Below are positions 27,131-43,631 of a stretch of 50,838 nucleotides of DNA, piece by piece (within the stretch, counting starts at the first letter, position 1; each line of letters starts with the position of its first letter). Under the pieces are notes generated by a model that did not search any database, was not told the origin of the DNA, and saw only the letters and a list, made by a program, of their open reading frames with translations. The stretch is from Colwellia sp. D2M02 (GTDB lineage Bacteria; Pseudomonadota; Gammaproteobacteria; Enterobacterales; Alteromonadaceae), in contig NZ_JAHKPW010000085.1 in NCBI RefSeq assembly GCF_018860755.1, positions 77,120 through 127,957 of the forward strand. Reading direction: 5' to 3'. The translations under genes were made by a program, and so were the position numbers.

Positions 27131-28534
27131 CTAATTATTTTTACCAACAAGTCGTGTTTTAGCATTTGCAGCCATATATGAAAATACCGCATAAGTTGCC
27201 ACATTTTGTCGCAATTTTTTCGGATCAATTTTATCAAGCGTATCATCAGCGGTATGGTGAAGATTGAAATAATCAGTACCATCTTGAGCTAATTTAAAAA
27301 CAGGGATTTTAAATGGGCGAAATGGAATTAAATCAGGTCCACCACCGGCCGAGTTACTGCCAATATGCTCTACATCTAAAGATTTCATCATCGTTGCAAT
27401 ATCTCGTACTACCGGTAAGACACTCGCATGAACATTTGACTCCATTCCCCAAATAACATCTGCACCAAAATCAGATTCTGCTGCCGCAACGATATTAGAA
27501 AGCTCTTTCTCATGTTTTTTCACATAGGCTTTTGCTCCCCATAATCCGAACTCTTCGGCAGCAAACAATACAACACGGATACTACGTTTAGGCTTAGTTT
27601 TCGCAGCCAATTTTGCCGCAGCCATAGTAATGGCAACACCCGCCCCATCATCTAATGCACCCGTCCCTAAATCCCATGAATCCAAATGTCCACCAATCAA
27701 TACGTATTCTTCAGGGAACTCACTCCCTGTAAATTCGCCAATAACATTATACGATGTACCTTCACCCATGGATTTGGTCTGCACATTTACATTGATAGTA
27801 ACTGGCTTTCCGAGTGCGATTAGACGATGAAGTTGATCGGCATCAGCATTTGAAATTGCTGACGAAACTATTTTAGTTACGCCTTCCTTATAATGACTGC
27901 CGCCTGTGTGAGCAAAACGATGGTGAGCCGTACTAACGGAGCGCATGACATAACCTACCGCACCTTTTTGCGCGGCAACCACAGCGCCACGATTACGAGC
28001 TTGTACCGCAGGGCCATAACCATTGCCATCACGATCTCGATTCATACGATAATTAATGAAAACAATCTTCCCCTTCACTGCTCTTTGAGAAGCGTTCTCT
28101 AACTCAGCTAAAGTTTCAAATTCTATAACTTGTGCTTGAACTCCATTTTTTGGTGTACTAATACTATTGCCCAATGCTGTAATGTGTAACTTTTGAGGTG
28201 AAGGGCTGATAATCGCTGCCGATTCAAAGTTACGTATCCACTTAGGAAAAGTGACAGGTTCAGTCCATACTTTATCAAAACCCAAAGCATTAAATTTTTT
28301 CACCGCCCATTCAACACCGGCTTTATCTCCAACTGTACCAGGCATTCTTGGACCAACTTCTGTCGTTAGCGACTCGACTAAATTCCACGCTAAATCACTT
28401 TTCAGCGCTTGTTGCTTTAACTGCTCAATTTGTTTGAGCTGCACTTGTGAGAAGTTATCAGACTTCGCTTCTGTTTGAGCGAAGCTCAAGCTAAGTGCCG
28501 CAAAAAGCAATACTGATATCATTTTATTTTTCAT
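27131..28534 (-). CDS. Exported M28-family zinc peptidase (carboxypeptidase Q-like)
   Basis: A 467-residue secreted aminopeptidase/carboxypeptidase of family M28, with a Sec signal peptide at residues 1-23 (MISVLLFAALSLSFAQTEA). The two-zinc site is complete: GGHLDSWDLGTGALDDGAG near 280-298 (H, D), the AAEEFGLWG catalytic Glu pair near 324, AESDFGAD (D) near 354 and HHTADDTLDKI (H) near 424. A protease-associated insert occupies roughly 110-250. It would finish peptides released by the neighbouring BSP-type proteins. It begins 67 bases after the upstream lipoprotein gene, with a hairpin between them. Confidence 0.9.
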   Translation of the reverse strand: MKNKMISVLLFAALSLSFAQTEAKSDNFSQVQLKQIEQLKQQALKSDLAWNLVESLTTEVGPRMPGTVGDKAGVEWAVKKFNALGFDKVWTEPVTFPKWIRNFESAAIISPSPQKLHITALGNSISTPKNGVQAQVIEFETLAELENASQRAVKGKIVFINYRMNRDRDGNGYGPAVQARNRGAVVAAQKGAVGYVMRSVSTAHHRFAHTGGSHYKEGVTKIVSSAISNADADQLHRLIALGKPVTINVNVQTKSMGEGTSYNVIGEFTGSEFPEEYVLIGGHLDSWDLGTGALDDGAGVAITMAAAKLAAKTKPKRSIRVVLFAAEEFGLWGAKAYVKKHEKELSNIVAAAESDFGADVIWGMESNVHASVLPVVRDIATMMKSLDVEHIGSNSAGGGPDLIPFRPFKIPVFKLAQDGTDYFNLHHTADDTLDKIDPKKLRQNVATYAVFSYMAANAKTRLVGKNN

Positions 28535-28558
28535 AAGGTGCCTTACTATGTAAATATG

Positions 28559-28587
28559 TTGGGGATGCTTACTATTATCATCCCCAA
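28559..28587 (-). other. Intercistronic hairpin
   Basis: TTGGGGATG / CATCCCCAA with an 11-base loop lies between the lipoprotein peptidase and the M28 peptidase genes. It lacks a T-run, so it may stabilise or attenuate the message rather than end it. Confidence 0.5.
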
Positions 28588-28601
28588 TGACGGTAATAAT
28601 T

Positions 28602-30191
28602 TTATTCTTTATTAATTAACGCCTTAGGCTTTTCCTTCCATTGAGGTAATTCTAACCTTTTATTCGGATGTTTTTTATTATATTGATCCACATAAACTGT
28701 ATACTTATTCCATAGTTCATCAACATCTTCGTTAAGAATATCTTTAATTGCCGCTTTAAAGCTCCAAGGTTTAATCTTTAATGGTGACTGATTAAACTTG
28801 TAAGCAAATTCTGGATCATAATTATCAGTGATCCAGTTTAAGAAAAAACCCGTTGTGGTATAGCCAGAAAGATAACGATCATTGACTTGCGTTTTTCGGT
28901 TGATTCTTCCTGTGTCGGGTGAACGAGTCAGGTGATGTCTGCCTCTAATGCGCACCAAATCAGCAACACCTTCAAGAAACGCGTAATAATCATGACCTGG
29001 CGCGTATACATCTTTAACCGTTTCAGGTTGCGATTGATAACCATGGACTAGTTCATGCCAGAATACACCATAAATTTCATATTTCACCGCATCGTCTTGT
29101 TCGTTGGCTAAGGCATATTGCAAATATCGAGTACTAAAATAAAGCTGCATGTTTTTACCTGAGCCACCACGTGCTGCTAGCACGTCACTCCAATTATACT
29201 GAAAAGTCACGGTATCAAATTCAGGCACTTCAGTAATATTGCGATAAAGGTATTTACATACTTCCAGAGAAACCTCATTAATTGCTGCCGTTAAATCAGG
29301 TACAATTCGATTTACTCGCTTAAACCCTTCTGAGTCTGTATCTGTATGTGCCAGTATGACTTTTGGATAATGAAAACCTTGCCAAGGGTTGGCCGGGTCG
29401 TAAGAAACCACAAAACGTTTTTTTAACTTGGTGTGCGTACCAAATTTATTTTTTACCGTTAAGGTAACATCATGGCCGCCCGGCTTATTAAACACAACTT
29501 TAGGATTTCTTTCATTACTCGTGGCAGGCGTAGCATCTTCAAAAGTCCACAGCCATTCTGTTGGCGAATTAGGTGACTCATCCTTAAAAGAAACCTCTTG
29601 ATCAAACTTAACTTTGGTTGCCGATGCAGAAAACTGTGCCACTGGCTCGTTAGTAATCCCCTGTAGTTCTAGCTCTGCAATTTGTAAATAAGTATCACCC
29701 CAAGTCGTCACTTTCGTCTGAGTAAAGTTATACCGATACTGAGAATACTTAACTGTGTTTCCTACAATCAGGTATTTGTTAGTGACACTTCGGCCACTAA
29801 AAGCTTGTTCGCTTCGAGTATCAATGGTTGTCCAATGGGTACCATCATTAGATGCTTCCAATGTCCATTCCTTAGGGTCCCGACCTGGTGCATCACCAGC
29901 AGAGGTGATTTGGTAACTAGTTAGAACTTTCGGCTTTTGGGTGTCAAAAACAACCCAAGCTGATTTATGTACAGATAGAAATTTAGAACCTTTGTCTCCA
30001 TCGAATAGATTATTAATGCCTTCCGCCGCAGGTGAGTCGGCATGTTCCGTCGTCGCTAAAAAGTGCAAATCTACAAAATTTACCTCTGTGGCAGATATCG
30101 TTCCCTGTAGTACTTCTTCTTGCTTTGTTACTACGCACGCAGCTAGCCCTGTGGCCAAAACAGCCATGGTAAGCGTTTTCATTAACTTCAT
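28602..30191 (-). CDS. Lipoprotein with discoidin-like, PKD and BSP-type peptidase domains
   Basis: A 529-residue lipoprotein: signal with lipobox LATGLAAC at residues about 12-19. Residues about 40-175 form a discoidin-like (F5/8 type C) domain (LFDGDKGSKFL, DPKEWTLEASNDGTHW). Residues about 190-270 are a PKD domain (SPTEWLWTFEDA, PGGHDVTLTVKN). The rest matches the basic secretory protein family, a putative metallopeptidase family: HELVHGY near 378 gives an HExxH zinc site and FLEGVADL near 405 a possible third ligand. It starts 21 bases after the pgi remnant and is a paralogue of the gene at 31936. Probable cell-surface peptidase; substrate unproven. Confidence 0.83.
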   Translation of the reverse strand: MKLMKTLTMAVLATGLAACVVTKQEEVLQGTISATEVNFVDLHFLATTEHADSPAAEGINNLFDGDKGSKFLSVHKSAWVVFDTQKPKVLTSYQITSAGDAPGRDPKEWTLEASNDGTHWTTIDTRSEQAFSGRSVTNKYLIVGNTVKYSQYRYNFTQTKVTTWGDTYLQIAELELQGITNEPVAQFSASATKVKFDQEVSFKDESPNSPTEWLWTFEDATPATSNERNPKVVFNKPGGHDVTLTVKNKFGTHTKLKKRFVVSYDPANPWQGFHYPKVILAHTDTDSEGFKRVNRIVPDLTAAINEVSLEVCKYLYRNITEVPEFDTVTFQYNWSDVLAARGGSGKNMQLYFSTRYLQYALANEQDDAVKYEIYGVFWHELVHGYQSQPETVKDVYAPGHDYYAFLEGVADLVRIRGRHHLTRSPDTGRINRKTQVNDRYLSGYTTTGFFLNWITDNYDPEFAYKFNQSPLKIKPWSFKAAIKDILNEDVDELWNKYTVYVDQYNKKHPNKRLELPQWKEKPKALINKE

Positions 30192-30212
30192 ATTTTTTTC
30201 TCTTATCTATAG

Positions 30213-31858
30213 CTAATTAGTTTTATTTTTTCTTACTGATTGATAATATTTCATTAATTCTCGAGTTGAACTATCATAATTAGGATTAACGAATTTTTTC
30301 TGAAGTTCTTGCTCAATTGTATTGGCAAGCCCTTTGCCTAACTCCCCCCCCCATTGATCAAAAGAGAAAATCTGTAGAATAATCCCTTGAACAAATATTT
30401 TATGCTCATACAAAGCAATCAAACTGCCAATTGAACGAGGAGATATTGAATCAAGTAAGATGGTGTTTGTTGCTCTATTTCCGTTATGAACTTTATGCGG
30501 TGCAACACTATTTATATATGACCTTTTTCCTCCATATCATCTCGCACTTGTTGCTCGTTTACTCCCATCATTAATGCTCGTGTTTGTGCAAATAAATTCG
30601 CTAATAATATCTCGTGGTGTTTAGTCAGCGACGCCTCGTTATTGATAGAGCCAATAAAATCAGCCGGTACTATATTGTTACTTTGATGAAGATACTGATA
30701 AAAAGCATGCTGCCCGTTAATCCCTAATGTCCCCCAAATTGAAGGGACTGTGGGATAATAAATTTCATCACCGTGCCAACTCACTGACTTACCGTTGCTT
30801 TCCATTTCTGCTTGTTGCAAATAGGCACTCAACATATGAAGCGGTTGGTCATAAGGTAAAATAGCCTGTGACTGGGCTCCCAGAAATGTGCAATTCCAGA
30901 CACTAATCAGCGCAAGAATAACTGGAGCATTATTCTCTAAAGGGGTATTGTAAAAATGCTGATCAAGCTCAAAAGCTCCTTCAAGTAATTCTTTAAAGTG
31001 ATTAAAACCTAAGCTCAACGCTATAGGTAAACCGATAGCAGACCAAAGCGAAAATCGCCCGCCGACCCAGTCCCACATTTCAAATATATTTTTATTGTTA
31101 ATGCCAAATTTCAGTGCATTTTCTTTGTTTGCCGTAACAGCAACAACCTGCTGTTCAATAATTTTTTGGTCAAATGTGTTATCTGTTAACCACTTAATTG
31201 CTGTTTCTGCATTAACAATAGTTTCTATTGTAGTAAAAGTTTTACTCGAAATAATAATCAAGACTGTATCTGGAGTTAATGACGCTAGAACATTGGAAAT
31301 TTGAGTGCCGTCGACATTAGAAACATAATGAACACTAACACGGTCGTCACTGCAGTGCTTAAGGGCTTCGGTTACCATTTGAGGACCCAAGTTTGAGCCT
31401 CCAACACCGATATTAACAACGTCAGTAATGGCTTTTCCTGAATGTCCTTTCCATACACCACTTCTTACTTGTTCAGTAAACACTTCAATTTTTGCTAAAC
31501 TTCCATGAATTTTTTCCGTTATATCTTCGCCGTTTACGTATGTAGATTCTTTCCCAAAATCCCGCAACGCTGTATGTAATACAGGTCGATTTTCGGTTTT
31601 ATTTATAGCCGCACCAGCGAATAGCTTTTCTCGCCAATTCTCTATATCGCAATCCGTAGCTAACGCTATCAATTCATGAAGTATTTCTTTAGAGATTAAA
31701 TTTTTTGAAAAATCAATCAGCATTGTCGGAAGCTGGATGGAAAAATCACTGAATCGATGTTCATTATCTGCAAATAGTGTTTTTATATGAGTGAGTTTGG
31801 CAACTTCAGCATGTTTAGTAAGCGCTTGCCAGCTTGATAATAAAGTTCTAGAGGTCAT
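30213..31858 (-). pseudogene. pgi: Glucose-6-phosphate isomerase, frameshifted
   Basis: Two frames together encode PGI. The first (31858 down to 30512, 448 residues) holds GVGGSNLGPQMV, the signature GGRFSLWSAIGLPIA, the catalytic Glu in MESNGK and His in NGQHAFYQ, then stops at TAA after EEKGHI. The second (shifted by -1) resumes at SVAPHKVHNGNRATNTILL and carries the catalytic Lys in LYEHKIFVQG. Restoring one base gives 548 codons, the normal length. The break lies near GAGGAAAAAGG/TATATA at about 30512-30530. The second part also has Gly where the conserved Val should be in FDQWGVELG. Either a pseudogene or a sequencing error. Confidence 0.85.
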
Positions 31859-31889
31859 TAATTAATTCGTTAGTTTATAAGGTAGAGAT

Positions 31890-31920
31890 AAAAGTCCCCT
31901 TCAATTTGAAGGGGACTTTT
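31890..31920. terminator. Bidirectional terminator between lipoprotein gene and pgi
   Basis: A 14-base stem AAAAGTCCCCTTCA / TGAAGGGGACTTTT with a three-base loop and T-runs. It ends the upstream peptidase transcript just before the pgi start, so pgi probably depends on its own promoter or readthrough. Confidence 0.87.
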
Positions 31921-31935
31921 GCAAATGGATGAATA

Positions 31936-34008
31936 CTATTCAGCGGTTAGCAGTGCAAGCTCTCCCAATTGAATTAGACGACCATCATCACCACCAATAC
32001 CATCTCCTTCTCGAGTATTTTCCAAAGTGTACTTATAAAACTTGTAAGCAGTACTCGCATTATCAATATCGTAGTGAAAAGTAACTAAACGTCCAGGTGC
32101 TTCAGGGTATTGATCAACATCTAGTTCAACCCAGCTGGCTCCATCGATAGAACCTGATATAGTCCATCGAGTTGGATCTCGCTGTGTATTATCATTACCT
32201 GTCGTTAAACTATATTTATGTAGAACAATCGCTTCAGGTAATTCAAATGTTACTTCAACATTTTCAATATCATTGATTGGTGACAACTCAGGTGCATATT
32301 GCTCTAACCACCAAGTTTCTTCCAAGAAGGCATTAAATTTTTTCTCTACGTTATTGTCATTAATTTTATCGACCCCTTCTTCCGCACCGAACGCAGCAAT
32401 AATAACGGTTGTTGCATTTGTTGTGACTACCACTCCTTCATCAATTGCAAAATTACGATAACCCGCGACAGGGGTTGGAAATGGTGGCTCAATATTTAAA
32501 GCATTATGGTATTCAGCCCACAGCACAGCAACGCCACGGTCATCACCAAAAACTGATTTAAATGCGGCGTCAAAGCTCCACTCTTCTAACTCGCCTGCAG
32601 CTTTATTAAATAAATAAATAAAATCAGTGTTTCTGTGGCTATTGGCTACCCACTCAAGGAAGAATGATGTTTGATTATAGGCATCAACATTCCAATCAGC
32701 AGCCCATTTGATACCACCGCGCTTATGTTCATTAAAGCCTGCCTTAATGCGCATGTAATCAGCTAACCCTTCTAAGTATGAGTGGTACTCATCACCAACA
32801 ACATATTGACCAGAATTTGGCGAGTTGTTATAGCCATGCGTTAATTCGTGCCACAACATGCCTAGTACTTCATTGCGCAGAGACTCATCGCCCTCGGCAG
32901 CTTTATTAGCAAGATGACCAACATCCATTAACAAAATCATATCTTGGTCAGTGCCACTTTTAGCCGCAGGAAAATCATACTCTCCTGTTTCAAAGGTCAC
33001 TGTTTTGAATAATGGCGCTTCTGTTACATCTTTATAAAGTACTTGTGCTACCGCTAACGAAATATCGTGGATAACTTGTTCAATGTCAGGCATTACTCGA
33101 GCAAATGCGAGTTGGCCTTCATGCTCTGGCGCATGGGCAACAAGTGAAACAGCTGGCTTTTCATAGCCTGCCCATGGGTTTTGTGGATCCCAAATATGAA
33201 CGATTTGCTCTTGTACTAGCTCATTGGAGCCTTTGTCATTTGTCGCAACTAGTGTTACCGACTTAGCCCCAAGAGATGAAAAAGTCACCGACGGGTTTCT
33301 AGCCGTACTTGTCGCTGGTTCGCCATTTTCAAATGTCCATTGCCAAGCGGTTGGGTTAGCTAACGATCGATCCCAAAATTGCACATCTTCGCCCACTTCG
33401 GCACGCGCTTTGTTACTAGCAAAAGCGACTAAAGGTGCATCCGCCACAACAGTTAATTCAATTTCAGCTAATTGGAAAATGCCCGCAGCTGTTTCCGGTG
33501 CATTTGAAAAACTAAAGCGATAATGTTGGTACTCAATTTCATTTGTCAGTAACTCAAAAGTGCGCTTTTCACCGCGACTACCAAAACTTTGGCCCGAGCG
33601 ACTATCAACCTCAACCCAGGTTGTAACATCTGTAGAGCCCTCAAGCATCCATGATGCTGGATCTCGCTCTGGCGCATCATTACCTGAAATTAAAGCATAA
33701 CCTTTAAGGGCATATGGTTTTGCTGCAGAGAATTCAACTGTGACACTATTACTGAAGGACAAAAACTTAGAGCCGTCATTACCATCGATTAAATTTCCCA
33801 CCCCTTCAGAACCTGGGGAGTCTACAGCATCTGGCGAAGTAATTGTGCTACCAGAATCTATCGCCATGTTCCGTAATGCAGAGTCAGCAACCTGGTTGTC
33901 TTGCGTTACTTTTGGTGTTATTTCTTGTGATTTATCCGAGCTATTACATGCGCCTAAGGTTGTCGATAATACAACCATAGCGATTATTGATAATTTATTA
34001 TTTTTCAT
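31936..34008 (-). CDS. Lipoprotein with two discoidin-like domains, PKD and BSP-type peptidase
   Basis: About 690 residues, a larger paralogue of the lipoprotein at 28602. After a lipobox (STTLGAC) come a discoidin-like domain (residues about 45-190; NLIDGNDGSKFLSF), a PKD domain (about 200-280; NPTAWQWTFENGEP), the BSP peptidase region (about 285-510) with HELTHGY near 384 and YLEGLADY near 411, and a second discoidin-like domain (about 525-688; DPTRWTISGSIDGASW). Discoidin domains commonly bind glycans. I use the ATG at 34008, preceded by AGAAAG; one four codons earlier lacks a ribosome site. It follows a TonB receptor by about 75 bases. Confidence 0.83.
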   Translation of the reverse strand: MKNNKLSIIAMVVLSTTLGACNSSDKSQEITPKVTQDNQVADSALRNMAIDSGSTITSPDAVDSPGSEGVGNLIDGNDGSKFLSFSNSVTVEFSAAKPYALKGYALISGNDAPERDPASWMLEGSTDVTTWVEVDSRSGQSFGSRGEKRTFELLTNEIEYQHYRFSFSNAPETAAGIFQLAEIELTVVADAPLVAFASNKARAEVGEDVQFWDRSLANPTAWQWTFENGEPATSTARNPSVTFSSLGAKSVTLVATNDKGSNELVQEQIVHIWDPQNPWAGYEKPAVSLVAHAPEHEGQLAFARVMPDIEQVIHDISLAVAQVLYKDVTEAPLFKTVTFETGEYDFPAAKSGTDQDMILLMDVGHLANKAAEGDESLRNEVLGMLWHELTHGYNNSPNSGQYVVGDEYHSYLEGLADYMRIKAGFNEHKRGGIKWAADWNVDAYNQTSFFLEWVANSHRNTDFIYLFNKAAGELEEWSFDAAFKSVFGDDRGVAVLWAEYHNALNIEPPFPTPVAGYRNFAIDEGVVVTTNATTVIIAAFGAEEGVDKINDNNVEKKFNAFLEETWWLEQYAPELSPINDIENVEVTFELPEAIVLHKYSLTTGNDNTQRDPTRWTISGSIDGASWVELDVDQYPEAPGRLVTFHYDIDNASTAYKFYKYTLENTREGDGIGGDDGRLIQLGELALLTAE

Positions 34009-34045
34009 AATCTTTCTCATATATTCTAAAAAAATATCAAAGAAT

Positions 34046-34069
34046 GCCTTATGGACACTTGCATAAGGC
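34046..34069 (-). other. Hairpin between TonB receptor and lipoprotein genes
   Basis: GCCTTATG / CATAAGGC with an eight-base loop. On the minus strand a T-rich stretch follows only after ten or more bases, so at most it attenuates readthrough from the receptor gene. Confidence 0.5.
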
Positions 34070-34082
34070 TTACATTAATTGT

Positions 34083-36905
34083 TTAAAATTTTATTTTTGT
34101 ACCTAAATAAAGCATGCGACCAATTCGACTATATGAGCTCGCGGTAGCGGTCTGAGCCTGGCCATGCTTATAACCTTCCGGTAGAAATGGCGGATCTTGA
34201 TCAAAAACATTATCAACACCAGCATAGACTTCTACCGGTGTCTCATCACCAAAGATATAGCGAACCTGTGCATTATGAATAACAACAGCATCTATATCGT
34301 TGTTAAAATAACTTGCATCTTTATCGTCATATATTGATCCCTGATAAACAGTAGTCCAGTTGACGGTCAGATCTTCATATCGATAAGTGGAACTAAAATT
34401 TCCTCGTTGTTCAAAATATGGAAGCTCATTTAAGTTATCTTCCCAAGGAGAATCTGGGAGTGCTTTTGTTTGGTGCTTGCTAACATAGTTATATAGAAGC
34501 TTAAAATTTACATCTCCATAATCACCAAGTGAATATTTATAACTTGCCTCTAAGTCCACACCTTCAACTTCACGACCTGCTAAGTTAAATACATAGTTAT
34601 AAGTGGTTTGAATAACCCCTGTTGTACTATCCCTTTCTATAGCTCGACAAAATTCAGCTAGACCTTCCAAGCAACGTTCAGCTTTATAGTCATTACCTAC
34701 ACCCGTAATAATGTTATCAATAGCAATACTGTAGTAATCAAGTGAAATGGTTAGATCTTTGATATAAGAAGGCGAATAGATAAAACCTACTGTAGTAGTT
34801 TCTGCAGTTTCAACTTCTAAATCAGGCGATGGGCCAAAAAATGAATAACGTTGTATTTCATCATCTGGATTACCGTCAAATGTCCCTCCATCTTTTATCG
34901 CATTAGCAATACCAGGGATCGCTCGACAAGCGCTCGCATGCTCTGCACTTACGCCATCTGCGGCGCCTGTTAACGAAACACCGTCACAAGGGTCAATACC
35001 AGCAATACTTAAGCCTTGTCGTGTACCGCCGTTAAACATATCCGCAATTGTTGGTGCCCTAAATGCTTCAGAATATTGCGCACGAAATGTAATGTCATCA
35101 CTTACTTCCCAACGAGAAGATACTTGCCAACTACTATTACGTCCTACATGGCTATAATCAGTTGTACGTCCAGCAACATTGACACCAAGTGACTTAGCAA
35201 ACTCAAGATCAGCCAAGATCGGTATGTCAAATTCAACAAAGAACTCGTCGACATCATAAGAGCCTTCCAGGCTATCAATTTGCACGCCACCCGTTAGTCC
35301 TGATTTAGTAGCAGAGTCAGGATGTTCTTCTGCATATTCTTTCCGCTTCTCATAGCCTGCAGCAAAACCAACACTACCCGCTGGTAAACTAAACAAGTTG
35401 CTATTTGAAATAGAAGCCACTAAGGTTTCTTGTCTTAACGTACCGTCAAGTGTGGTTAAGTTGAACCAAAAGTTTTGCATTTCTTGCGTAAACGGTTCGA
35501 AAACATTGGTTGGTACACAACCGATAGCAGCATAAGCCTCATCACGACATACAGCATCACCAGTGTCTGGATCAGTCACAACATCTATTGCCTTTTTAAA
35601 TGCAACTTCATTAACATCATGACCCGCTTGATCATTTGTCACGTGACCATAGTTATAACTTAATTCCCAGTCCCAATCTTCAGCAAACGTACCATCAAAA
35701 CCTAAAACAACTCTTGTTACTACACGTTCAGCATCAAAACCACCTGGACCAAATTCATTCAATCGGCCACGATAATTAATAAACTGTGCATCATTCTCCG
35801 CTAAGGCTATTTTACGTATTTCATCAGGTACAAACGGATTGTCGACACTAATAGGCGCACCTCGAAATGCAGAGCCTATAGCATATAAATCAGAAGGATT
35901 TGATGTTTCTGTTTTTGCATAAGTGAACTCACCAAACACACGAACATCATCATTAAGGTAATAATTTGCTAGCGCATTTACAATCGTACGATCGATTGGA
36001 GTCGATATGGTGCGACTATCTGCATGCCGATAACCATCTTTATCTTGATCCCACTCACCTACAACACCGTTTTGCCATGAAATACTTTCATTACCAATAT
36101 CGTAGCGCCAAGTTGGCGCATAAGTACTTAAGTCTGCAGGGTTTAAAACTTTTTCACCATCAACCGTTCTTAAACGGACACCAGTTACACCTCGATCTCG
36201 AGATGCTAAACCATCAGAGGTAGATCGTTCAAAGTTAACAACAACATTGCCCTTATCTTCAGCAAAATTACCACCGATTGTTGCACGTAACAGATCACTT
36301 TTATTGTCACCTTTACCTGACTGATTTTTACGAGCCTCAAATTCAAAGCCATCAAAATCTCTTTTCAAAATAAAGTTAACAACACCGGCAATTGCACCAG
36401 AACCATAGCTTGCAGAACCACCACCGGTAGTAATATCAATACGTTCAACTAATGATGTTGGAATAGAGTTCATGTCCGCAAGAATCTCGCCGACATCACT
36501 AGAGACATAGCGACGACCGTTAACAAGTACAAGAGTTCTCTCCTGACCAAGGTTGCGCAAATTAACAGTGTTCATACCTGTATTAGCGTAGTTAAATCCC
36601 GCAGATTCACTAGTTAATCCACCAGCTACACTTGGTAAATCTAAAAGTGCATCCATCACATTCACGTGACCAGTCAATGCTAAATCCTCACCACTTATTG
36701 ACGTTATCTGACTAGGTGCTAATGCATTTACTGAGCGAATACGAGAGCCCGTAATAGCAATGCGCTCTATAGGCTCTGCACTTTCTTGTTCTTCTGCTTG
36801 CTCAGCAGCAAAAACTGGCACTGTAGCAACCGATAAAGTTGCTCCCACCAGCACTGCAAGCTTAGACAAAGAAAACGAATGTTTTCTGGTATTATTTTTG
36901 TCCAT
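34083..36905 (-). CDS. TonB-dependent outer-membrane receptor
   Basis: A 940-residue receptor with a signal peptide ending near VFAAEQ (about residue 35), a TonB-box-like ERIAITGSRI (about 46-56), a plug domain (MDALLDLPSVAGG, RTLVLVNGRRYVSSD, SYGSGAIAGVVNFILKRDF) and a C-terminal barrel ending ...RMLYLGTKIKF with the terminal aromatic Phe. It has no signalling extension. It is likely to import oligosaccharide or glycopeptide; the ligand is inferred from its place beside mannosidases and peptidases. A LacI operator is 58 bases upstream. Confidence 0.92.
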   Translation of the reverse strand: MDKNNTRKHSFSLSKLAVLVGATLSVATVPVFAAEQAEEQESAEPIERIAITGSRIRSVNALAPSQITSISGEDLALTGHVNVMDALLDLPSVAGGLTSESAGFNYANTGMNTVNLRNLGQERTLVLVNGRRYVSSDVGEILADMNSIPTSLVERIDITTGGGSASYGSGAIAGVVNFILKRDFDGFEFEARKNQSGKGDNKSDLLRATIGGNFAEDKGNVVVNFERSTSDGLASRDRGVTGVRLRTVDGEKVLNPADLSTYAPTWRYDIGNESISWQNGVVGEWDQDKDGYRHADSRTISTPIDRTIVNALANYYLNDDVRVFGEFTYAKTETSNPSDLYAIGSAFRGAPISVDNPFVPDEIRKIALAENDAQFINYRGRLNEFGPGGFDAERVVTRVVLGFDGTFAEDWDWELSYNYGHVTNDQAGHDVNEVAFKKAIDVVTDPDTGDAVCRDEAYAAIGCVPTNVFEPFTQEMQNFWFNLTTLDGTLRQETLVASISNSNLFSLPAGSVGFAAGYEKRKEYAEEHPDSATKSGLTGGVQIDSLEGSYDVDEFFVEFDIPILADLEFAKSLGVNVAGRTTDYSHVGRNSSWQVSSRWEVSDDITFRAQYSEAFRAPTIADMFNGGTRQGLSIAGIDPCDGVSLTGAADGVSAEHASACRAIPGIANAIKDGGTFDGNPDDEIQRYSFFGPSPDLEVETAETTTVGFIYSPSYIKDLTISLDYYSIAIDNIITGVGNDYKAERCLEGLAEFCRAIERDSTTGVIQTTYNYVFNLAGREVEGVDLEASYKYSLGDYGDVNFKLLYNYVSKHQTKALPDSPWEDNLNELPYFEQRGNFSSTYRYEDLTVNWTTVYQGSIYDDKDASYFNNDIDAVVIHNAQVRYIFGDETPVEVYAGVDNVFDQDPPFLPEGYKHGQAQTATASSYSRIGRMLYLGTKIKF

Positions 36906-36962
36906 GTATATCCCCTAAGATATTTAGTTTGTTGTTATAGTAATTTTATTTTCAATCCAAAA

Positions 36963-36974
36963 TGGAACGTTCCA
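36963..36974. promoter_or_regulatory. LacI-type operator upstream of the TonB receptor
   Basis: Perfect palindrome TGGAACGTTCCA. On the minus strand it lies directly before a candidate promoter, TTTTGG-N17-TATAAC, so a bound repressor would cover the -35. It matches the site beside lacI (41173-41186) over all 12 bases. Confidence 0.8.
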
Positions 36975-36975
36975 A

Positions 36976-37004
36976 AAAAATTGGGAGATAAATTGCTCTC
37001 TCCC
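36976..37004 (-). terminator. Terminator of the second TonB receptor gene
   Basis: On the minus strand GGGAGA, a ten-base loop, TCTCCC and AATTTTTTT, 40 bases after the receptor stop. Its T-run abuts the operator at 36963-36974. Confidence 0.8.
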
Positions 37005-37046
37005 GTAATTAGGAAGCAATTCGTTATATAGAGAATTGACCCAAAA

Positions 37047-39590
37047 TTAGAAACTATATTGGGCTTTTAAGTAATAATACCCACCGCTAAACCCCATAAC
37101 AGCAGTCACGGGATACTCTGCTCCCAATATATCTGCATATGGATTTTTGTTCGGGTAATTATCAAAAATATTCTGCGCGCCAAGTGAAAATGTTAGCGCT
37201 TGCGTTGCGGCATAGCTTATTTCTGCGTCTACTGTGATTGCAGAGTCAATATCAATAGGCCAATCACCTACTTCTGCATGTGCTTCATAATGACCACCAA
37301 AATATACCATTCGAATAAAGCCATCGATATCGCCATTAGTATGCTGAACAGTTATTGTGCCTTTGTGATCAGGTAAGCCGTCTTCCATTTGTTTAACAAC
37401 AGTTTCACTAACAAAGTCTTCATTCCAGTTATCAATACTAGTGTCTGTCCAGTTGTAAGCTAAACTGTAGCGAGTTTCACCGCCAAACATATCTGCGCGA
37501 TAATTTGCAACGACATCAACCCCTTTTGTCGTTGTATCAAAATCATTGGTGAAGTATTTAACACTGTCAAAACTACTCGCATCTAGTACGCCAAGCGCTT
37601 CCAACGCAGTTACATCTTCTTCAGTTACTTTAAAATCTTTTGATAGCGTAATTCGGTCTTTTACTTTGACGTTAAAATAGTCAATAGTGAAAAATAGCTC
37701 ATCAAACTGAAACACCGCCCCAAACGCATAGTTAGTTGAATCTTCAGGATCTAAACTTTTACCACCCTTGCGCACTGATATGAGATTAGTTGGAGATAAT
37801 GTTGCCTGATCAACAAGTAATCCCGCCTGATTCAATGATGTGCTAACATTGCTTGCATTGCTTTGACCAACGGTTGGTGCTCTAAAACCTGTTCCTACCG
37901 AGCCACGTAACGCGATATTATCATTCGCTTGCCAATGCGCTGTAAGTTTTGCATTTGTTGTTGTGCCAAAGTCACTAAAATCTTCATACCGTGTCGCCGC
38001 ACCAATACGTAAGTTGTCAGTTAAATAGGCTTCAATATCGATATACGCTGCAACATTCGAACGCTCAAATTCACCGGCATGCTCAGGTTTGAAACCAGGA
38101 AAACCATTCGAACCTACATTAAAACCTTGTTTATAAAGTGGCAATGATAATGTAGTGTCACCTAAAGAATAAGAAGCGACATCGCCCGCTTTAATCTCAA
38201 AAGATTCTTCACGGTACTCGAATCCACCAGCAACATTGATGTCATCCTCCAGCCAACCAACGGTTAATGGATAAGAAAGATCTAGTGTATAACTGGTGTC
38301 TATTTCAATGTATTCTCCTGGGCTGAAGTCTCGTGGTGAGTCAGGTCCCATTGCCGCATTTAAGGTATCAGTAATTGAAAACTTTGACGCATGTCGACCA
38401 ACTGAGGCACTTAAGTCGTAAAGTAATCCACTTTCAAGTTCGCCTCTAGTACCGATGGCAATGGCGGTATCAACTACCTTACCGCCAAAGTGCGGAGTAA
38501 AACCGCCGGGGATATTCTCATAATGAGAAAAGCAATTTGGGTCGGCTTTAATTTGTGCTAGTGCTGTCGGATCCGGAGCATCGTTAATAATATTAACCAC
38601 GGGACAAGCAATACCATCATCTGGTGTTAAATCGCCAACCAAGAGAGTATTGTCTGGTCCACCATAAACACCACCGCGATTATTAGGATTACGGAAATAA
38701 AAACCACCAACAACCTCTTTTTCAGCCCAGTTACCAAAAAGATAGAATTCTTTATCATTGCCTAAATCTAAACCAATATTACCGAATAATTTAAAGTTAT
38801 TTTTTATTTCTGGATTCCCCCAAACTTGTGCAGGGTTTGCTACACTAGTGTTTCCGGCATCAATCAAAGCTTGCGCATCTTCGCGTTGTACAGAACGGCT
38901 AGTCGGCTTATTATCACTGACCTCAAAGCTAAAGTTGGCAAAGCCGTCTTCGGTTAGTGGCAAACCAAAATTACCGGCAAGAAGGTTACTTTCGCCATCT
39001 CCCTCGTAATATTGACCTGTTTGCAATTGAAAGGAACCACCTTCACTATCATCTTTCAATTGGAAGTTGATCACACCAGCGATAGCATCCGAGCCATATT
39101 GCGCTGCGGCTCCATCTCGTAAAACTTCAACTTGCTTTAATGCAATAGCAGGGATAACAGAAATATCCGGCCCATGTGCGCCATTATTTACACCGCCTGT
39201 AGTCCATGTAATGACTGATGCTCGATGACGACGTTTACCATTAACAAGTACTAAAGTATTGTCAGACGGCAAACCTCTCAAGTTTGCCGGTCTAACCATA
39301 GTTGCAGCATCATTTATTGACTGTGTGTTGACATTGTAGGAAGGAACAACATTGCTCAATACCGAACTAATATCACCAAGACCATTTCTCGCTAGCTCCT
39401 TAGATTCGATAATATCAATTGGTACAGACGAGTCCGCAACTGAACGAGGTGACGATCGAGTACCAATTACGACTATGGTTTCAGTTTCTTTTTCATTATT
39501 TTTCACAGCTGCAACGTCGTTTTCTGCCGCAAAACTATTATTGAAGCCTAAAGCAAGCGCAACGGCAATGGTAGTTTTAGCAATTTTCAT
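37047..39590 (-). CDS. TonB-dependent outer-membrane receptor (second)
   Basis: An 847-residue receptor when started at 39590, where the ATG has AGGGAA upstream and opens a clear signal peptide (MKIAKTTIAVALALGFNNSFA). The longer frame would carry a hydrophobic tail that lies over operators and is unlikely. A TonB-box-like ETIVVIGTR, plug motifs (NTLVLVNGKRRH, DGAAAQYGSDAIAGVINFQL) and the terminal YYLKAQYSF are typical. It is unlike the other receptor in sequence, suggesting a different ligand in the same regulon. Confidence 0.9.
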   Translation of the reverse strand: MKIAKTTIAVALALGFNNSFAAENDVAAVKNNEKETETIVVIGTRSSPRSVADSSVPIDIIESKELARNGLGDISSVLSNVVPSYNVNTQSINDAATMVRPANLRGLPSDNTLVLVNGKRRHRASVITWTTGGVNNGAHGPDISVIPAIALKQVEVLRDGAAAQYGSDAIAGVINFQLKDDSEGGSFQLQTGQYYEGDGESNLLAGNFGLPLTEDGFANFSFEVSDNKPTSRSVQREDAQALIDAGNTSVANPAQVWGNPEIKNNFKLFGNIGLDLGNDKEFYLFGNWAEKEVVGGFYFRNPNNRGGVYGGPDNTLLVGDLTPDDGIACPVVNIINDAPDPTALAQIKADPNCFSHYENIPGGFTPHFGGKVVDTAIAIGTRGELESGLLYDLSASVGRHASKFSITDTLNAAMGPDSPRDFSPGEYIEIDTSYTLDLSYPLTVGWLEDDINVAGGFEYREESFEIKAGDVASYSLGDTTLSLPLYKQGFNVGSNGFPGFKPEHAGEFERSNVAAYIDIEAYLTDNLRIGAATRYEDFSDFGTTTNAKLTAHWQANDNIALRGSVGTGFRAPTVGQSNASNVSTSLNQAGLLVDQATLSPTNLISVRKGGKSLDPEDSTNYAFGAVFQFDELFFTIDYFNVKVKDRITLSKDFKVTEEDVTALEALGVLDASSFDSVKYFTNDFDTTTKGVDVVANYRADMFGGETRYSLAYNWTDTSIDNWNEDFVSETVVKQMEDGLPDHKGTITVQHTNGDIDGFIRMVYFGGHYEAHAEVGDWPIDIDSAITVDAEISYAATQALTFSLGAQNIFDNYPNKNPYADILGAEYPVTAVMGFSGGYYYLKAQYSF

Positions 39591-39626
39591 ATTATTCCCT
39601 ACTACCCCCAACAAAACAAAAAAAAC

Positions 39627-39638
39627 AGAACGTTCCAC
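39627..39638. promoter_or_regulatory. LacI-type operator, proximal to the second TonB receptor
   Basis: On the minus strand TGGAACGTTCTG, a match to the palindrome at 10 of 12 positions, 37 bases upstream of the start. Confidence 0.62.
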
Positions 39639-39712
39639 ATAAAATAAATCTACAAAAATGCAAATAAACAAGACTTTGGGAGAGTTAAGCCACACAAAAA
39701 GCACCCTTTTAG

Positions 39713-39724
39713 TGGAACGTTCCA
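39713..39724. promoter_or_regulatory. LacI-type operator, distal to the second TonB receptor
   Basis: A perfect TGGAACGTTCCA, 86 bases from the proximal site centre to centre. Two sites that far apart could support looping. Confidence 0.78.
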
Positions 39725-39725
39725 A

Positions 39726-40082
39726 TTAATAACTTAACGATATTTATTTAATAGTCAAACACTATTTAGTATTTTTTTTCTACAGGTGGTGTCGAATTTT
39801 TATTTAATAGACAAAGGAAAGGAATAATAAAAAAATCAGTAAACTATAAAAACCATTGTTTTATATGAAAAAAATTTATAGTTTCACAAATGAATTTACA
39901 CTCTAAAAAAAATGAAGAAATATAATGTAAAAATTAGTAACAAGATTGCAACCTTAAAAGCCACTTTGAAAGTTCGCTTAGTCAATAACTACACTTCGCT
40001 GTTCAATCGCTATTATTAGACCCTTGAATTTATTAACTTGAATACAATGGCGCTCTATCTCATTTTAATACTAATAAATATA
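39726..40082. other. Gap between second TonB receptor region and lacI
   Basis: AT-rich, no gene seen. One inverted repeat, AAACTATAAA / TTTATAGTTT (39841-39850 and 39875-39884, 24-base loop), could form a hairpin on the transcript from lacI; it is not a clear terminator. Confidence 0.4.
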
Positions 40083-41090
40083 CTAGCCAGAATCGCGCTC
40101 TATAAGGTCAACACCAATAAGAATTTTATTTTTGGTGCCATCTTTAATATTTGCCAAAACCTGGCACACTGCAATAGCAATTTGATTCGCATCGACGTGA
40201 ATTGTCGATAACGCAGGAGACATTAATCGAGAATCTTCCAGATCATCAAAACCAATCACTGCAATATCTTTTCCTGGCTGTTTACCCGATGCCCTTATAT
40301 GCTCAATTGCGCCATAAGCGATAACATCACTAAAGCAAACAACGGCCTCAATATCGTTAGCAGTCGCTAATACCTCCTCCATAGCCCCACGACCACCATT
40401 ACGGTTTGTGTTAGATTGTACACATAACTTTTTAGAAAATGGTATTTCTGCTAATGTCATCGCCTCAGTATAGCCAGATAAACGCTGATGATAATCTGAT
40501 ATGCTTTCATTGCCGCCAATAAAGGCAATTCTTTTATAGCCTTTAGCAAGCATGTGTTGCGTTGCCAGTTTTGTACCGGCAAAATTGTCTGGCAATACCG
40601 TCGCAACTTTAGCACCAGACACTTCACGCATAATGTGTACCACAGGGAAACCTTGTTCAACCAATGAATTTGTCCATTCAGGTGAAGTGCCCGGCGCAGG
40701 ACAAATAATAAATGCAGCAACATTATACTCTTTTAGGTTTCGTACCAACGATGTTTGAGTTTCAACATTTTCATCACTATTAACTAGCATAGAAAACATC
40801 CCCATTTGGCGAATTTGCTTTTCAAGTCCTACCGCAAGTTGCGCTGAATATGGGTTTTTTAAATCATTAATAACAATAGCGACTAAATTGGATCTTCTAC
40901 TTCTCAGTGATGCAGCATCTCTATTGTAAACATAACCAATGTCATCAATCGCTTTTTCTACTTTTTGTCGTGCTTTATCACTTACTTTATCGCTTCCAGT
41001 CAGTACCAAAGAAACTGTCGATTTCGATACACCGGCTTTTTTAGCCACGTCTATAACCGTCACACTTTTCGATTTTGTGCCACTCTTCAT
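40083..41090 (-). CDS. LacI-family transcriptional regulator (mannoside locus)
   Basis: A 335-residue LacI/GalR regulator. The helix-turn-helix and hinge helix are at residues about 10-60 (VIDVAKKAGVSKSTVSLVL, then SLRSRRSNLVAIVI), followed by the periplasmic-binding-protein-like sensor domain (IAFIGGNES, AVVCFSDVIAYGAIEH, IAVIGFDDLED). Four TGGAACGTTCCA-type sites nearby, including one in its own divergent promoter region, form its obvious targets. Mannose or a derivative is the likely effector, by context only. Confidence 0.9.
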   Translation of the reverse strand: MKSGTKSKSVTVIDVAKKAGVSKSTVSLVLTGSDKVSDKARQKVEKAIDDIGYVYNRDAASLRSRRSNLVAIVINDLKNPYSAQLAVGLEKQIRQMGMFSMLVNSDENVETQTSLVRNLKEYNVAAFIICPAPGTSPEWTNSLVEQGFPVVHIMREVSGAKVATVLPDNFAGTKLATQHMLAKGYKRIAFIGGNESISDYHQRLSGYTEAMTLAEIPFSKKLCVQSNTNRNGGRGAMEEVLATANDIEAVVCFSDVIAYGAIEHIRASGKQPGKDIAVIGFDDLEDSRLMSPALSTIHVDANQIAIAVCQVLANIKDGTKNKILIGVDLIERDSG

Positions 41091-41138
41091 TACAGCTATT
41101 CCCTAGTAAATTAACTATTATCATATTAAAACTATTGA

Positions 41139-41168
41139 ATTATAGCGAACCTAGCGTTATATTGACAA
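41139..41168 (-). promoter_or_regulatory. Promoter of lacI
   Basis: On the minus strand TTGTCA, 18 bases, perfect TATAAT, about 50 bases before the start. The operator lies directly upstream of the -35. Confidence 0.72.
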
Positions 41169-41172
41169 TTAA

Positions 41173-41186
41173 TTGGAACGTTCCAA
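41173..41186. promoter_or_regulatory. LacI-type operator in the lacI/GH92 divergent region
   Basis: Perfect 14-base palindrome TTGGAACGTTCCAA, 34 bases before the mannosidase start. It sits next to a TTGACA element (41162-41167) and would block the GH92 operon promoter and could affect lacI. Confidence 0.82.
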
Positions 41187-41219: not shown

Positions 41220-43631
41220 ATGAGTTATCCAACAATTAAAATGAGGACAGTAAGTAAACTGTTAAGTACTTGGACGGGAAATTTATTCGTGTTGGTCAGC
41301 CTAGTGCTAACTGCAACGGCTAGTGCAAATACCAACCTTAATACAAATGATGTTACCCAATGGGTTGATCCCTTTATAGGGACGGGTGGTGACGGCCACA
41401 CATTTCCTGGCGCAGTCGTTCCCTTTGGCATGGTGCAGTTAAGTCCTGATACCGCAGCAGTTAACCGTGGGATTGACCCTCAATCAGAAATATATAAGCA
41501 CAGTGCTGGCTATCACTATGACGATAAATCTATTATTGGTTTTTCTCATACCCATTTTAGCGGTACGGGTCATTCAGATTTAGGTGATTTGCTGATCATG
41601 CCGATGACCGGAGACGCACACACAGAACCAGGTAGCGAAACTAACCCTGATTCAGGTTACCGATCACGCTTTAGTCATGACAGTGAAATTGCATCACCTG
41701 GATATTATGCTGTTGAATTAAGCGACTACAACATAAAAGCAGAGCTAACCGCAACTGCTAGAACAGGTATGCATAGATATACCTTTAAAGAAAAAGATCA
41801 AGCTCATTTAATGCTAGATTTAACCGCTTCTATTTATAACTTTAAGAATAAAGTTATATGGAGTGACGTACGTGTTATCGATAATCAAACACTATTGGCC
41901 TATCGTTCAACCAATGGCTGGGCTAAACAAAGAGAAATGTATTTTGCCATTAAATTTTCTCAACCTTTCGATAGCATAGAGCTAATTAACCAAGACGATA
42001 GCCGCTATCGTTGTAATGGTTGCTTAACTAAAAAAGGCAATAAACCTTCTACAATAGTTAATTCTGCTATTCAATATACAGCCGGTAAAGCAGTTAAAGT
42101 ATTGGCTCACTTTAATGAACCCAATACAAAACCTCTTATTGTAAAAGTAGGTTTATCAGCCGTTAGTCGCAAAAATGCATTGGAAAACTTAACCACTGAA
42201 AATCCTGATTGGAACTTTGATAATATTCATCAACAAGCTAAAAAACAGTGGCAACAGCAACTATCTGTGTTGCAAGCAAAAGGCAGTAAATCGCAAAAGC
42301 GCCAACTATTTACTGCGCTTTATCATGCCTTACAAGCCCCATCAATATATCAAGATGTAAATGGTCAATATCGTGGTGTTGATGGCGAAATTCATCAAGC
42401 TGAAAGTTTTGAAAATCATACATTATTCTCTTTGTGGGATACCTACCGCGCTTTACATCCACTATTGACCTATGTTGCGCCAGATAAAGTCCCTAATATG
42501 ATTAAATCAATGTTAGCGCACTATAAAGAAAGCTACGACAATATGTTACCTATCTGGTCTTTCCATGCCCACGAAACTTGGACCATGATTGGATACCATG
42601 CGGTATCAGTAATCGCTGACGCCTACCTAAAAGGCATTCGTGATTTTGATAGCGAACTTGCATTAAAGGCTATGATCGATACAGCAAACAACCCTAAATA
42701 TGACGCGATTCCTGAGTATATTAAACGTGGCTATGTTCCTATGGACAAACTTAGCGAATCAGTATCAATTACCTTGGAATATGCTTACAACGACTACGCA
42801 ATTGCACGTATGGCCGAAGCTATGGGCAAAAAAGATATTGCTAAAACCTTTTATAAACGCGCGTCATCCTATAAAAACCTGTTCGACCCTAGTATAGGCT
42901 TTATGCGAGGAAAGAATAGTGAGGGCCTATGGAACCCTAACTTTGATGCCGAAGACGCTAAATTAATGGGGCCATTTACCGAAGGCAACAGTTTCCAATA
43001 CACTTTTTACGTACCTCATGACGTAAGCGAACTAATTGATTTAATTGGTGGTGATAAAGCCTTTGAAGAGCGCTTAGACTTATTATTTAACAAAGAATTA
43101 AGTCATGAAAAAATTAAAGAGCATGAAGATATTGCTGGTTTAATTGGCCAATACGCGCATGGCAATGAGCCAAGTCATCATATTGCTTACTTATACAACT
43201 ATGCAGGAAAGCCTTGGCGCACACAAGAACGTATTCGACAAATCATGGATACCTTATCTTCAGATAAGCCAGACGGTCTTGCCGGTAACGACGATGTTGG
43301 TCAAATGTCAGCATGGTACATATTCTCAGCTATGGGCTTCTACCCTGTTGCCCCTGGTGACTTAACATATGCCATCGGTGCCCCTCAGTTACCAGAAATT
43401 TCATTAAACCTAGCTAATGGTAAAAAGTTCACAGTAATAGCGAACAAGCTTTCTAAAGCCAATAAATATATTAAAAGTGCACGTTTAAACGGCAAGCCAT
43501 TAAAGCGCAGTTTTATCACTCATGATGATATTAATAATGGTGGAACATTAGAGTTTATTATGTCGAATAAGCCAAACAAAACTTGGGCAAACAATACATC
43601 ACAACGTCCGCCATCAATGAGCACTCACTAG
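41220..43631 (+). CDS. GH92 alpha-mannosidase (exported)
   Basis: An 803-residue glycoside hydrolase family 92 enzyme with a signal peptide (hydrophobic NLFVLVSLVLTATASA). WVDPFIGTGGDGHTFPGAVVPFGM opens the beta-sandwich domain; the (alpha/alpha)6 part contains WDTYRALHPL, HETWTMIGYH, SESVSITLEYAYND and the Asp-bearing AGNDDVGQMSAWYIFSA. GH92 enzymes are Ca-dependent exo-alpha-mannosidases. In characterised Bacteroides enzymes a His-Glu in the HETW position goes with alpha-1,2 activity, so that linkage is a reasonable guess. First gene of a five-gene operon under the operator at 41173. Confidence 0.92.
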   Translation: MSYPTIKMRTVSKLLSTWTGNLFVLVSLVLTATASANTNLNTNDVTQWVDPFIGTGGDGHTFPGAVVPFGMVQLSPDTAAVNRGIDPQSEIYKHSAGYHYDDKSIIGFSHTHFSGTGHSDLGDLLIMPMTGDAHTEPGSETNPDSGYRSRFSHDSEIASPGYYAVELSDYNIKAELTATARTGMHRYTFKEKDQAHLMLDLTASIYNFKNKVIWSDVRVIDNQTLLAYRSTNGWAKQREMYFAIKFSQPFDSIELINQDDSRYRCNGCLTKKGNKPSTIVNSAIQYTAGKAVKVLAHFNEPNTKPLIVKVGLSAVSRKNALENLTTENPDWNFDNIHQQAKKQWQQQLSVLQAKGSKSQKRQLFTALYHALQAPSIYQDVNGQYRGVDGEIHQAESFENHTLFSLWDTYRALHPLLTYVAPDKVPNMIKSMLAHYKESYDNMLPIWSFHAHETWTMIGYHAVSVIADAYLKGIRDFDSELALKAMIDTANNPKYDAIPEYIKRGYVPMDKLSESVSITLEYAYNDYAIARMAEAMGKKDIAKTFYKRASSYKNLFDPSIGFMRGKNSEGLWNPNFDAEDAKLMGPFTEGNSFQYTFYVPHDVSELIDLIGGDKAFEERLDLLFNKELSHEKIKEHEDIAGLIGQYAHGNEPSHHIAYLYNYAGKPWRTQERIRQIMDTLSSDKPDGLAGNDDVGQMSAWYIFSAMGFYPVAPGDLTYAIGAPQLPEISLNLANGKKFTVIANKLSKANKYIKSARLNGKPLKRSFITHDDINNGGTLEFIMSNKPNKTWANNTSQRPPSMSTH

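Follow-up and report, generated by a model that had tools for sequence, protein, structure and literature searches.

Why would a bacterium encode, in the neighbourhood of alpha-mannosidases, two lipoproteins that each join a sugar-binding-type domain to a peptidase-like domain? This question is raised by a 50,838-nucleotide stretch (the window, by which we mean this whole stretch) of the 4.0-Mb draft genome of Colwellia sp. D2M02. A first-pass annotation had described two paralogous discoidin-PKD-BSP lipoproteins with HELVHGY and HELTHGY motifs and had proposed that they recognize mannosylated proteins and cut them. We consider it probable that the window carries a LacI-controlled locus for the use of alpha-mannosylated proteins, and find the earlier interpretation, taken as a whole, partly supported. 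The two lipoproteins, BSP1 and BSP2, have discoidin-like (CBM32), PKD and BSP domains, all over the Pfam cut-offs, as first described; BSP2 additionally carries, close to its C-terminus, a second CBM32-like domain that Pfam missed and the description lacked. The proteins are 37% identical to each other, the nearest BSP proteins found come from metagenome-assembled Colwellia (91% to BSP1, 89% to BSP2), and the two BSP and two GH92 mannosidase genes of this genome all lie in this locus. Below, L numbers denote fetched locus stretches and G numbers sampled genomes, G000 being this Colwellia genome; NnGH92 is a Neobacillus novalis mannosidase (PDB 7nsn) with a CBM32 of known structure.

Peptidase-like and CBM32 domains of BSP1 and BSP2

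28602..30191, minus strand: BSP1, lipoprotein CBM32-PKD-BSP (Pfam; lipobox-like LAAC)
28692..29405, minus strand: BSP domain of BSP1, residues 263-500 (HELVH 379-383; presumed third ligand E407)
29652..30059, minus strand: CBM32 of BSP1, residues 45-180 (E57, D100 and R104 at NnGH92 E105, D148 and R152; V74 at F122)
31936..34020, minus strand: BSP2, lipoprotein CBM32-PKD-BSP-CBM32 (Pfam and profile; lipobox-like LGAC), directly downstream of the receptor gene TBDR1
31939..32478, minus strand: C-terminal CBM32-like domain of BSP2, residues about 515-694 (D and R confidently aligned, E and F weakly)
32500..33204, minus strand: BSP domain of BSP2 (HELTH 391-395; presumed third ligand E417)
33445..33876, minus strand: N-terminal CBM32 of BSP2 (E, F, D and R at all four NnGH92 ligand positions)

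Both BSP domains matched PF04450 well above its cut-off of 23.8 bits (BSP1, 86.8 bits, 2.4e-24; BSP2, 93.1 bits, 2.7e-26). The HExxH motif and a downstream glutamate, presumably the third metal ligand, were kept in 98% of 62 BSP sequences and in 33 of 33 aligned ones (the rows of three of our alignments, 33, 12 and 30 in number, were hand-picked). The modelled domain resembles the catalytic domains of M1 aminopeptidases, and the best 50 fold matches listed were M1-type zinc peptidases, aminopeptidases and leukotriene A4 hydrolase; Foldseek alone on the BSP model gave no match under E 0.001. The structural check proposed with the first-pass annotation thus points to an intact zincin-type active site, and we infer from alignment and model that the domain is a zincin-type metallopeptidase that would cut the attached protein. 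Neither lipoprotein matched the M60-like domain (which we take to be PF13402) at up to E 0.01. BSP might instead be a metallohydrolase with another target, such as small peptides or a different amide or ester, that is merely linked to mannoside uptake. The plant protein PRp27 binds a metal, as its hydroxamate labelling shows, but has no known protein substrate; the authors of that work propose particular peptides or small molecules (PMC9322406). The zinc-peptidase character of the listed fold matches argues against such a target, which we regard as improbable.

Judged by title and abstract, the open-access literature on PF04450 concerns plant or pathogen-related proteins, and a search for ‘basic secretory’ with ‘outer membrane’ returned no such system. 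Two BSP-matching stretches, with CBM32 repeats and PKD, occur in single proteins of Aquimarina (L072:598-3402) and Tenacibaculum (L074:1-3303), the latter also having Por_Secre_tail.

The proposal that the lipoproteins recognize mannose gained support from their CBM32 domains. Through these domains, 7nsn was the first PDB match of both BSP1 and BSP2 (1.6e-34 and 4.4e-29), and a profile of 30 CBM32 domains matched 7nsn at 1.4e-64, the sole other match at or below 0.01 standing at 1.6e-5. In the solved structure of the N-terminal CBM32 of NnGH92, bound mannoimidazole makes hydrogen bonds with Glu105, Asp148 and Arg152 and stacks on Phe122 (PMC10167667). All three window domains have the Glu, Asp and Arg, and two of the three the Phe; among 91 aligned domains (mean 34% identity to NnGH92, many near relatives included) the Arg occurs in all 91, the Glu in 80, the Asp in 79 and the Phe in 25. 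Glu is missing from 11 domains, each the middle CBM32 of one of 11 P. luteoviolacea-group proteins; Asp is missing from these domains and from one more in L034. For the C-terminal domain of BSP2, a profile built without that domain matched residues 586-692 (i-Evalue 2e-25), and a search with the NnGH92 CBM32 as sole query matched residues 589-674 (1.9e-15), while the stretch with the Glu and Phe positions scored just 2.7 bits against the leave-out profile. Judging by these residues, the CBM32 domains of BSP1 and BSP2 would hold terminal alpha-mannose.

Of 20 chosen genomes, 15 had matches to the profile of this CBM32 subfamily. Four genomes with GH92 and no BSP match (G052, G341, G409 and G426) have four tandem CBM32 copies in proteins of 944-1000 amino acids, whose genes are interspersed with the GH92 genes of one contig. 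Proteins of 944-1007 amino acids with four tandem CBM32 domains of the subfamily are also encoded at L066:154-3012 and L081:115-3003; the N-terminal part has no clear Pfam match in these two, which were scanned, and similar proteins occur in G052, G295, G313, G341 and G409. In G052, G295, G314, G341, G409 and G426 such tandem-CBM32 proteins are encoded among GH92 genes of a shared contig, and they may be a further mannoside-active enzyme.

Receptor pairing and a shared LacI-type operator-like site

34083..36905, minus strand: TBDR1, TonB-dependent receptor paired with BSP2 (PF00593 1.8e-32)
36962..36975, no strand: LacI-type operator-like site ATGGAACGTTCCAA upstream of TBDR1-BSP2, one mismatch to TTGGAACGTTCCAA
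37047..39725, minus strand: TBDR2, TonB-dependent receptor (PF00593 7.6e-32; probable start near 39590)
39712..39725, no strand: LacI-type operator-like site GTGGAACGTTCCAA upstream of TBDR2, one mismatch to TTGGAACGTTCCAA
40083..41090, minus strand: LacI-family regulator, probably ManR-like, a name given by context (PF00356 and PF00532)
41173..41186, no strand: perfect palindrome TTGGAACGTTCCAA between the LacI gene and the GH92a gene

Each of the 16 long BSP2-type genes directly follows a TonB-receptor gene of the same orientation, at a distance of 4-85 bases; the paired receptors, that of L005 being read as two open reading frames, vary widely in their similarity to TBDR1 (130 to over 1800 bits). 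A lipobox-like motif is present in 14 of the 16 BSP2-type proteins, whose starts were called mechanically. By gene order BSP2 occupies the position of SusD-type partners; no SusD family protein was found among the ten window proteins scanned, and one is present in the Polaribacter locus L006. This position would also suit lipoproteins that are surface mannoside binders, that is, SusD-like or surface glycan-binding protein (SGBP)-like partners of TBDR1 with a structural or nearly inactive BSP domain, serving manno-oligosaccharide uptake only. The 16 of 16 pairing and the two CBM32 domains of BSP2 speak for binders, as does a plant BSP protein for which no casein or gelatin cleavage was detected. 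However, the HExxH motif and downstream glutamate are kept at the high rates given above, diverged lines included, and persist even in BSP-only proteins of 253-259 amino acids that lack CBM32 and are encoded beside GH92 in Pseudoalteromonas and Butyricimonas. We therefore think it unlikely that the lipoproteins only bind, and prefer a role in which they bind and cut.

The palindrome would link these genes to the regulator. Its exact 12-base core has three copies in the 4-Mb genome, each in this locus, and a palindromic site is common to the promoter regions of the LacI gene and its predicted targets, the pattern by which a ManR-type regulon is recognized. At TBDR2 the operator-like site overlaps the listed TTG start of the reading frame, and so the true start is probably residue 46. 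Across 28 gammaproteobacterial loci, the window included and L041 and later-fetched loci left out, a site with at most two mismatches lies in the 400 bases that precede the gene or operon leader for 40 of 42 BSP genes (28 with at most one mismatch, five exact), and 400 permuted palindromes over the same genes gave a mean of 0.08 and a maximum of 5. A site with up to two mismatches is present in every one of the 28 loci, and the exact core in 16 of the 22 such genomes searched whole, the remaining six having variants. Beside the BSP genes of Bacteroidota loci we saw no such site. TPR-AraC-type regulators adjoin the BSP gene in L010 and L037, and a further one-mismatch operator-like site of the window (49155-49168) is inside the mannose-isomerase gene.

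Neighbouring genes and co-occurrence with GH92

27131..28534, minus strand: M28-type peptidase (PF04389 2.2e-31; signal peptide by eye)
30512..31858, minus strand: phosphoglucose isomerase (PF00342 2.7e-159), between BSP1 and BSP2
41220..43631, plus strand: GH92a alpha-mannosidase (PF07971 5.5e-180; signal peptide by eye)
43703..46273, plus strand: GH92b alpha-mannosidase (PF07971 3e-133; lipobox-like motif by eye)
46273..47559, plus strand: MFS sugar transporter of the GluP/FucP kind (TIGR01272 3.7e-97, over cut-off)
47556..48575, plus strand: fructokinase-like sugar kinase (NF006957 4.6e-63, below cut-off)
48579..49766, plus strand: AGE-type, probably mannose isomerase (NF051846 3.1e-64, below cut-off)

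The plus-strand block from GH92a to the isomerase is divergent from the minus-strand LacI gene. Both GH92 proteins have PF07971 and PF17678 over cut-off, and the kinase and isomerase take their names from models whose curated cut-offs they do not reach. The M28 peptidase, two TonB receptors and GH92 neighbours of the first-pass annotation are all present, with the GH92 genes outside the span 27131..41186 that it had assigned to the system; it did not mention the phosphoglucose isomerase gene, which among other BSP stretches is common only to the window and L036.

The annotation had also called for the same gene set to be sought in other genomes, and co-occurrence with GH92 and mannose catabolism was found. 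A BSP-domain scan of genome contigs gave 38 loci. GH92 was present somewhere in 37 of the 38 BSP-bearing genomes, the exception being that of L041, and inside the fetched stretch (up to 10 kb each side) in 11 loci, from Colwellia (2), Polaribacter, Flavivirga, Labilibaculum, Thalassotalea, Bowmanella, Aliikangiella, Tenacibaculum and Butyricimonas (2). BSP was over cut-off in only two of 295 genomes sampled across the order (our own and a partial match), which made that sample unusable as a co-occurrence test, and we used a sample of 325 genomes of the family, own genome included. There, 16 genomes matched BSP at E 0.001 and the 14 over cut-off were counted; the other two were G359, which has GH92, and G395, which does not belong to the 56 genomes that have it. 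Twelve genomes had both, so that GH92 occurred in 12 of 14 BSP genomes versus 44 of 311 others (one-sided Fisher p 1.6e-8). The two genes were less than 10 kb apart in ten of these 12 genomes and on separate contigs in G388 and G552; the BSP genomes without GH92 were G351 (81% complete) and G436 (weak partial BSP match).

Such an association could arise with no functional link if secreted proteases and glycosidases are generally neighbours in marine copiotrophs, and the adjacent but unconserved M28 gene and the frequency of GH92 without BSP are in keeping with that. The Fisher value and the short distances in ten of 12 genomes speak against it, and so does the P. luteoviolacea group: in eight of the eight genomes checked by both searches GH92 lies on other contigs, and yet the operator-like site is kept ahead of BSP, starting 45-49 bases before the listed BSP start. 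This explanation is already disfavoured, and we give it very little credence beside a functional link.

Several arrangements stood out among the loci. In the Pseudoalteromonas GH92 stretches (L043-L047, L050-L052) a short BSP-only gene (253-255 amino acids; Pfam match checked on L043) adjoins GH92a in six of eight; L050 has a CBM32-BSP gene two genes from GH92, and L044, with GH92b, has no BSP gene. After GH92a and the short BSP gene comes a dCache methyl-accepting chemotaxis gene (L043:5599-7488, Pfam on L043), with genes of like size and place in L045-L047, L051 and L052. A BSP-PKD-CBM32 gene of Labilibaculum adjoins a GH38 alpha-mannosidase gene. In Butyricimonas (L039:2192-7452 and L040), two long genes precede a GH92-BSP-GH92 cluster, the first of L039 (877 amino acids) being a DUF4953 met-zincin and the second of similar size. 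The Tenacibaculum locus L007:2385-7910 has a bacterial alpha-2-macroglobulin gene (1841 amino acids) two genes upstream of BSP, with a metallophosphoesterase-like gene in between.

A proposed route for mannosylated proteins and its relatives

We propose that BSP1 and BSP2, as outer-membrane lipoproteins, would grip terminal alpha-mannose through their NnGH92-like CBM32 domains while their zincin-type domain cuts the attached protein. TBDR1, the gene partner of BSP2, would take up the glycopeptides so produced. The GH92 mannosidases would free mannose for the MFS carrier to import, and glycolysis would receive it by way of mannose isomerase, fructokinase and phosphoglucose isomerase. The sequence itself shows the domain make-up, the retained ligand and metal-site residues, the gene pairing, the co-occurrence and the common operator-like site; surface location, binding of mannose, cleavage of peptides and the sequence of steps are deduced from these. 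A more specific version, which we offer tentatively and with more doubt than conviction, is that the BSP lipoproteins are a new family of mannose-guided glycoproteases, a mannoprotein counterpart of M60, in which BSP2 and its receptor form an import pair for mannosylated peptides, a peptidase replaces the SusD-type protein and one LacI operator governs the whole.

Several observations weigh against use of mannosylated proteins as the function of this locus. BSP nearly implies GH92 but the reverse fails, since 44 of the 56 GH92 genomes of the family sample lack BSP over cut-off. Many loci are Pseudoalteromonas near-copies and therefore do not provide independent counts. In Bacteroidota, where GH92 is common, co-occurrence carries little information. 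No relative of the M28 peptidase was found in the fetched stretches of other BSP loci, and its place in a conserved set found no support. The CBM32 subfamily was not found by profile in the window GH92 proteins, nor in five of the 20 searched genomes (G197, G278, G329, G330 and G440, all with GH92), and it thus marks some GH92 loci and not all; the Phe122 position is Phe in just 25 of the 91 domains. Sites with one mismatch number five in the genome versus 11 for a reversed control, and operator specificity therefore depends on the exact sites and on where they lie; at up to three mismatches the window has six sites versus 2.9 expected, a number reached by eight of 100 shuffles. No peptidase activity of a bacterial BSP protein is reported in the open-access literature examined, and the barley relative Hv-PR17 left casein and gelatin uncut (PMC9322406). 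Finally, no operator site precedes the window's BSP1 or its L005 ortholog, and the co-regulation predicted from the shared operator-like site is not supported for the window's BSP1. In a tree of 48 BSP sequences, chosen from the 62 by removing near-copies and fragments, BSP1 clusters with Bacteroidota sequences (95/90) and BSP2 falls in a gammaproteobacterial line (100/100). Because of this grouping and the missing operator, we read BSP1 as having a separate origin, by transfer between phyla in either direction, and as being expressed by read-through or from another promoter.

As for substrate, our own genome holds no credible copy of GH76, other endo-acting families being outside the search, and the alpha-1,6-mannan backbone of yeast is therefore an unlikely target; mannosides open to exo-trimming, for example the high-mannose N-glycans or O-mannosyl glycans of glycoproteins, would fit. 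One GH76 match marked over cut-off (G000:C34:126493-126750, 9.1e-6) was rejected, as it lies inside the mannose-isomerase gene (48579-49766) and appears to be a cross-hit between related barrels. A BSP protein of P. luteoviolacea (L011:8900-11617) carries CBM5/12 domains and three CBM32 domains, the middle one with altered ligand residues. Its CBM5/12 domains suggest that the target there is material associated with chitin, such as fungal wall or cuticle. A CBM5/12 protein of Andreprevotia ripae that bears a BSP-like domain increased on chitin (PMC8802321).

If this reading is true, the joint dismantling of protein and glycan known for gut mucin extends to mannosylated proteins (fungal, algal or animal) and to marine Gammaproteobacteria and Bacteroidota. 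The hardly studied bacterial BSP family would acquire a definite, testable function together with a sugar specificity, and could be a source of enzymes that cut mannosylated proteins. As far as we searched the open-access literature, the new elements are BSP as a presumed peptidase, its connection with a mannose-binding CBM32, the pairing of receptor and peptidase, and the common operator.

The earlier statement that no pathway with this combination is described agrees with that literature, although the principle is published for mucin (PMC11992087). In the Bacteroides thetaiotaomicron polysaccharide utilization locus (PUL) BT4240-50, as in the window, a surface lipoprotein with CBM32 and a metallopeptidase domain (BT4244), an import system and glycosidases serve the protein and glycan of one glycoprotein; it differs in its M60-like O-glycopeptidase, Gal/GalNAc-binding CBM32, SusCD and mucin substrate (PMC11992087). 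The window has BSP, an NnGH92-type CBM32, GH92, LacI control and a TonB receptor, with no SusD found. Since peptidase family, sugar and import proteins differ, the locus is not a member of the BT4240-50 kind. GH92-rich PULs of North Sea Flavobacteriia combine GH92 with co-located peptidases and a glycoprotein target proposed by Kappelmann and colleagues, which further limits the statement that no such pathway is described; they are sulfatase-rich and mostly of the SusCD type, and the accessible text does not name BSP or a CBM32-peptidase (PMC6298971).

The Shewanella mannoside (Man) pathway resembles the window in its isomerase, kinase, permease, receptor and dedicated regulators (manR, manI, manK, manP and an outer-membrane receptor), but ‘BSP’ and ‘mannosidase’ are absent from its main text, and the regulators are likened by context (PMC2996990). 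Plant PR-17/PRp27 proteins share an HExxH-bearing BSP domain, through which a Nicotiana protein binds a hydroxamate probe; they are short defence proteins with no protease substrate known (PMC9322406). NnGH92 has the same CBM32 subfamily and the same mannose-contacting Glu, Asp and Arg, but in the published description its CBM32 is fused to a mannosidase, whereas in the window it is fused to a peptidase-like domain (PMC10167667).

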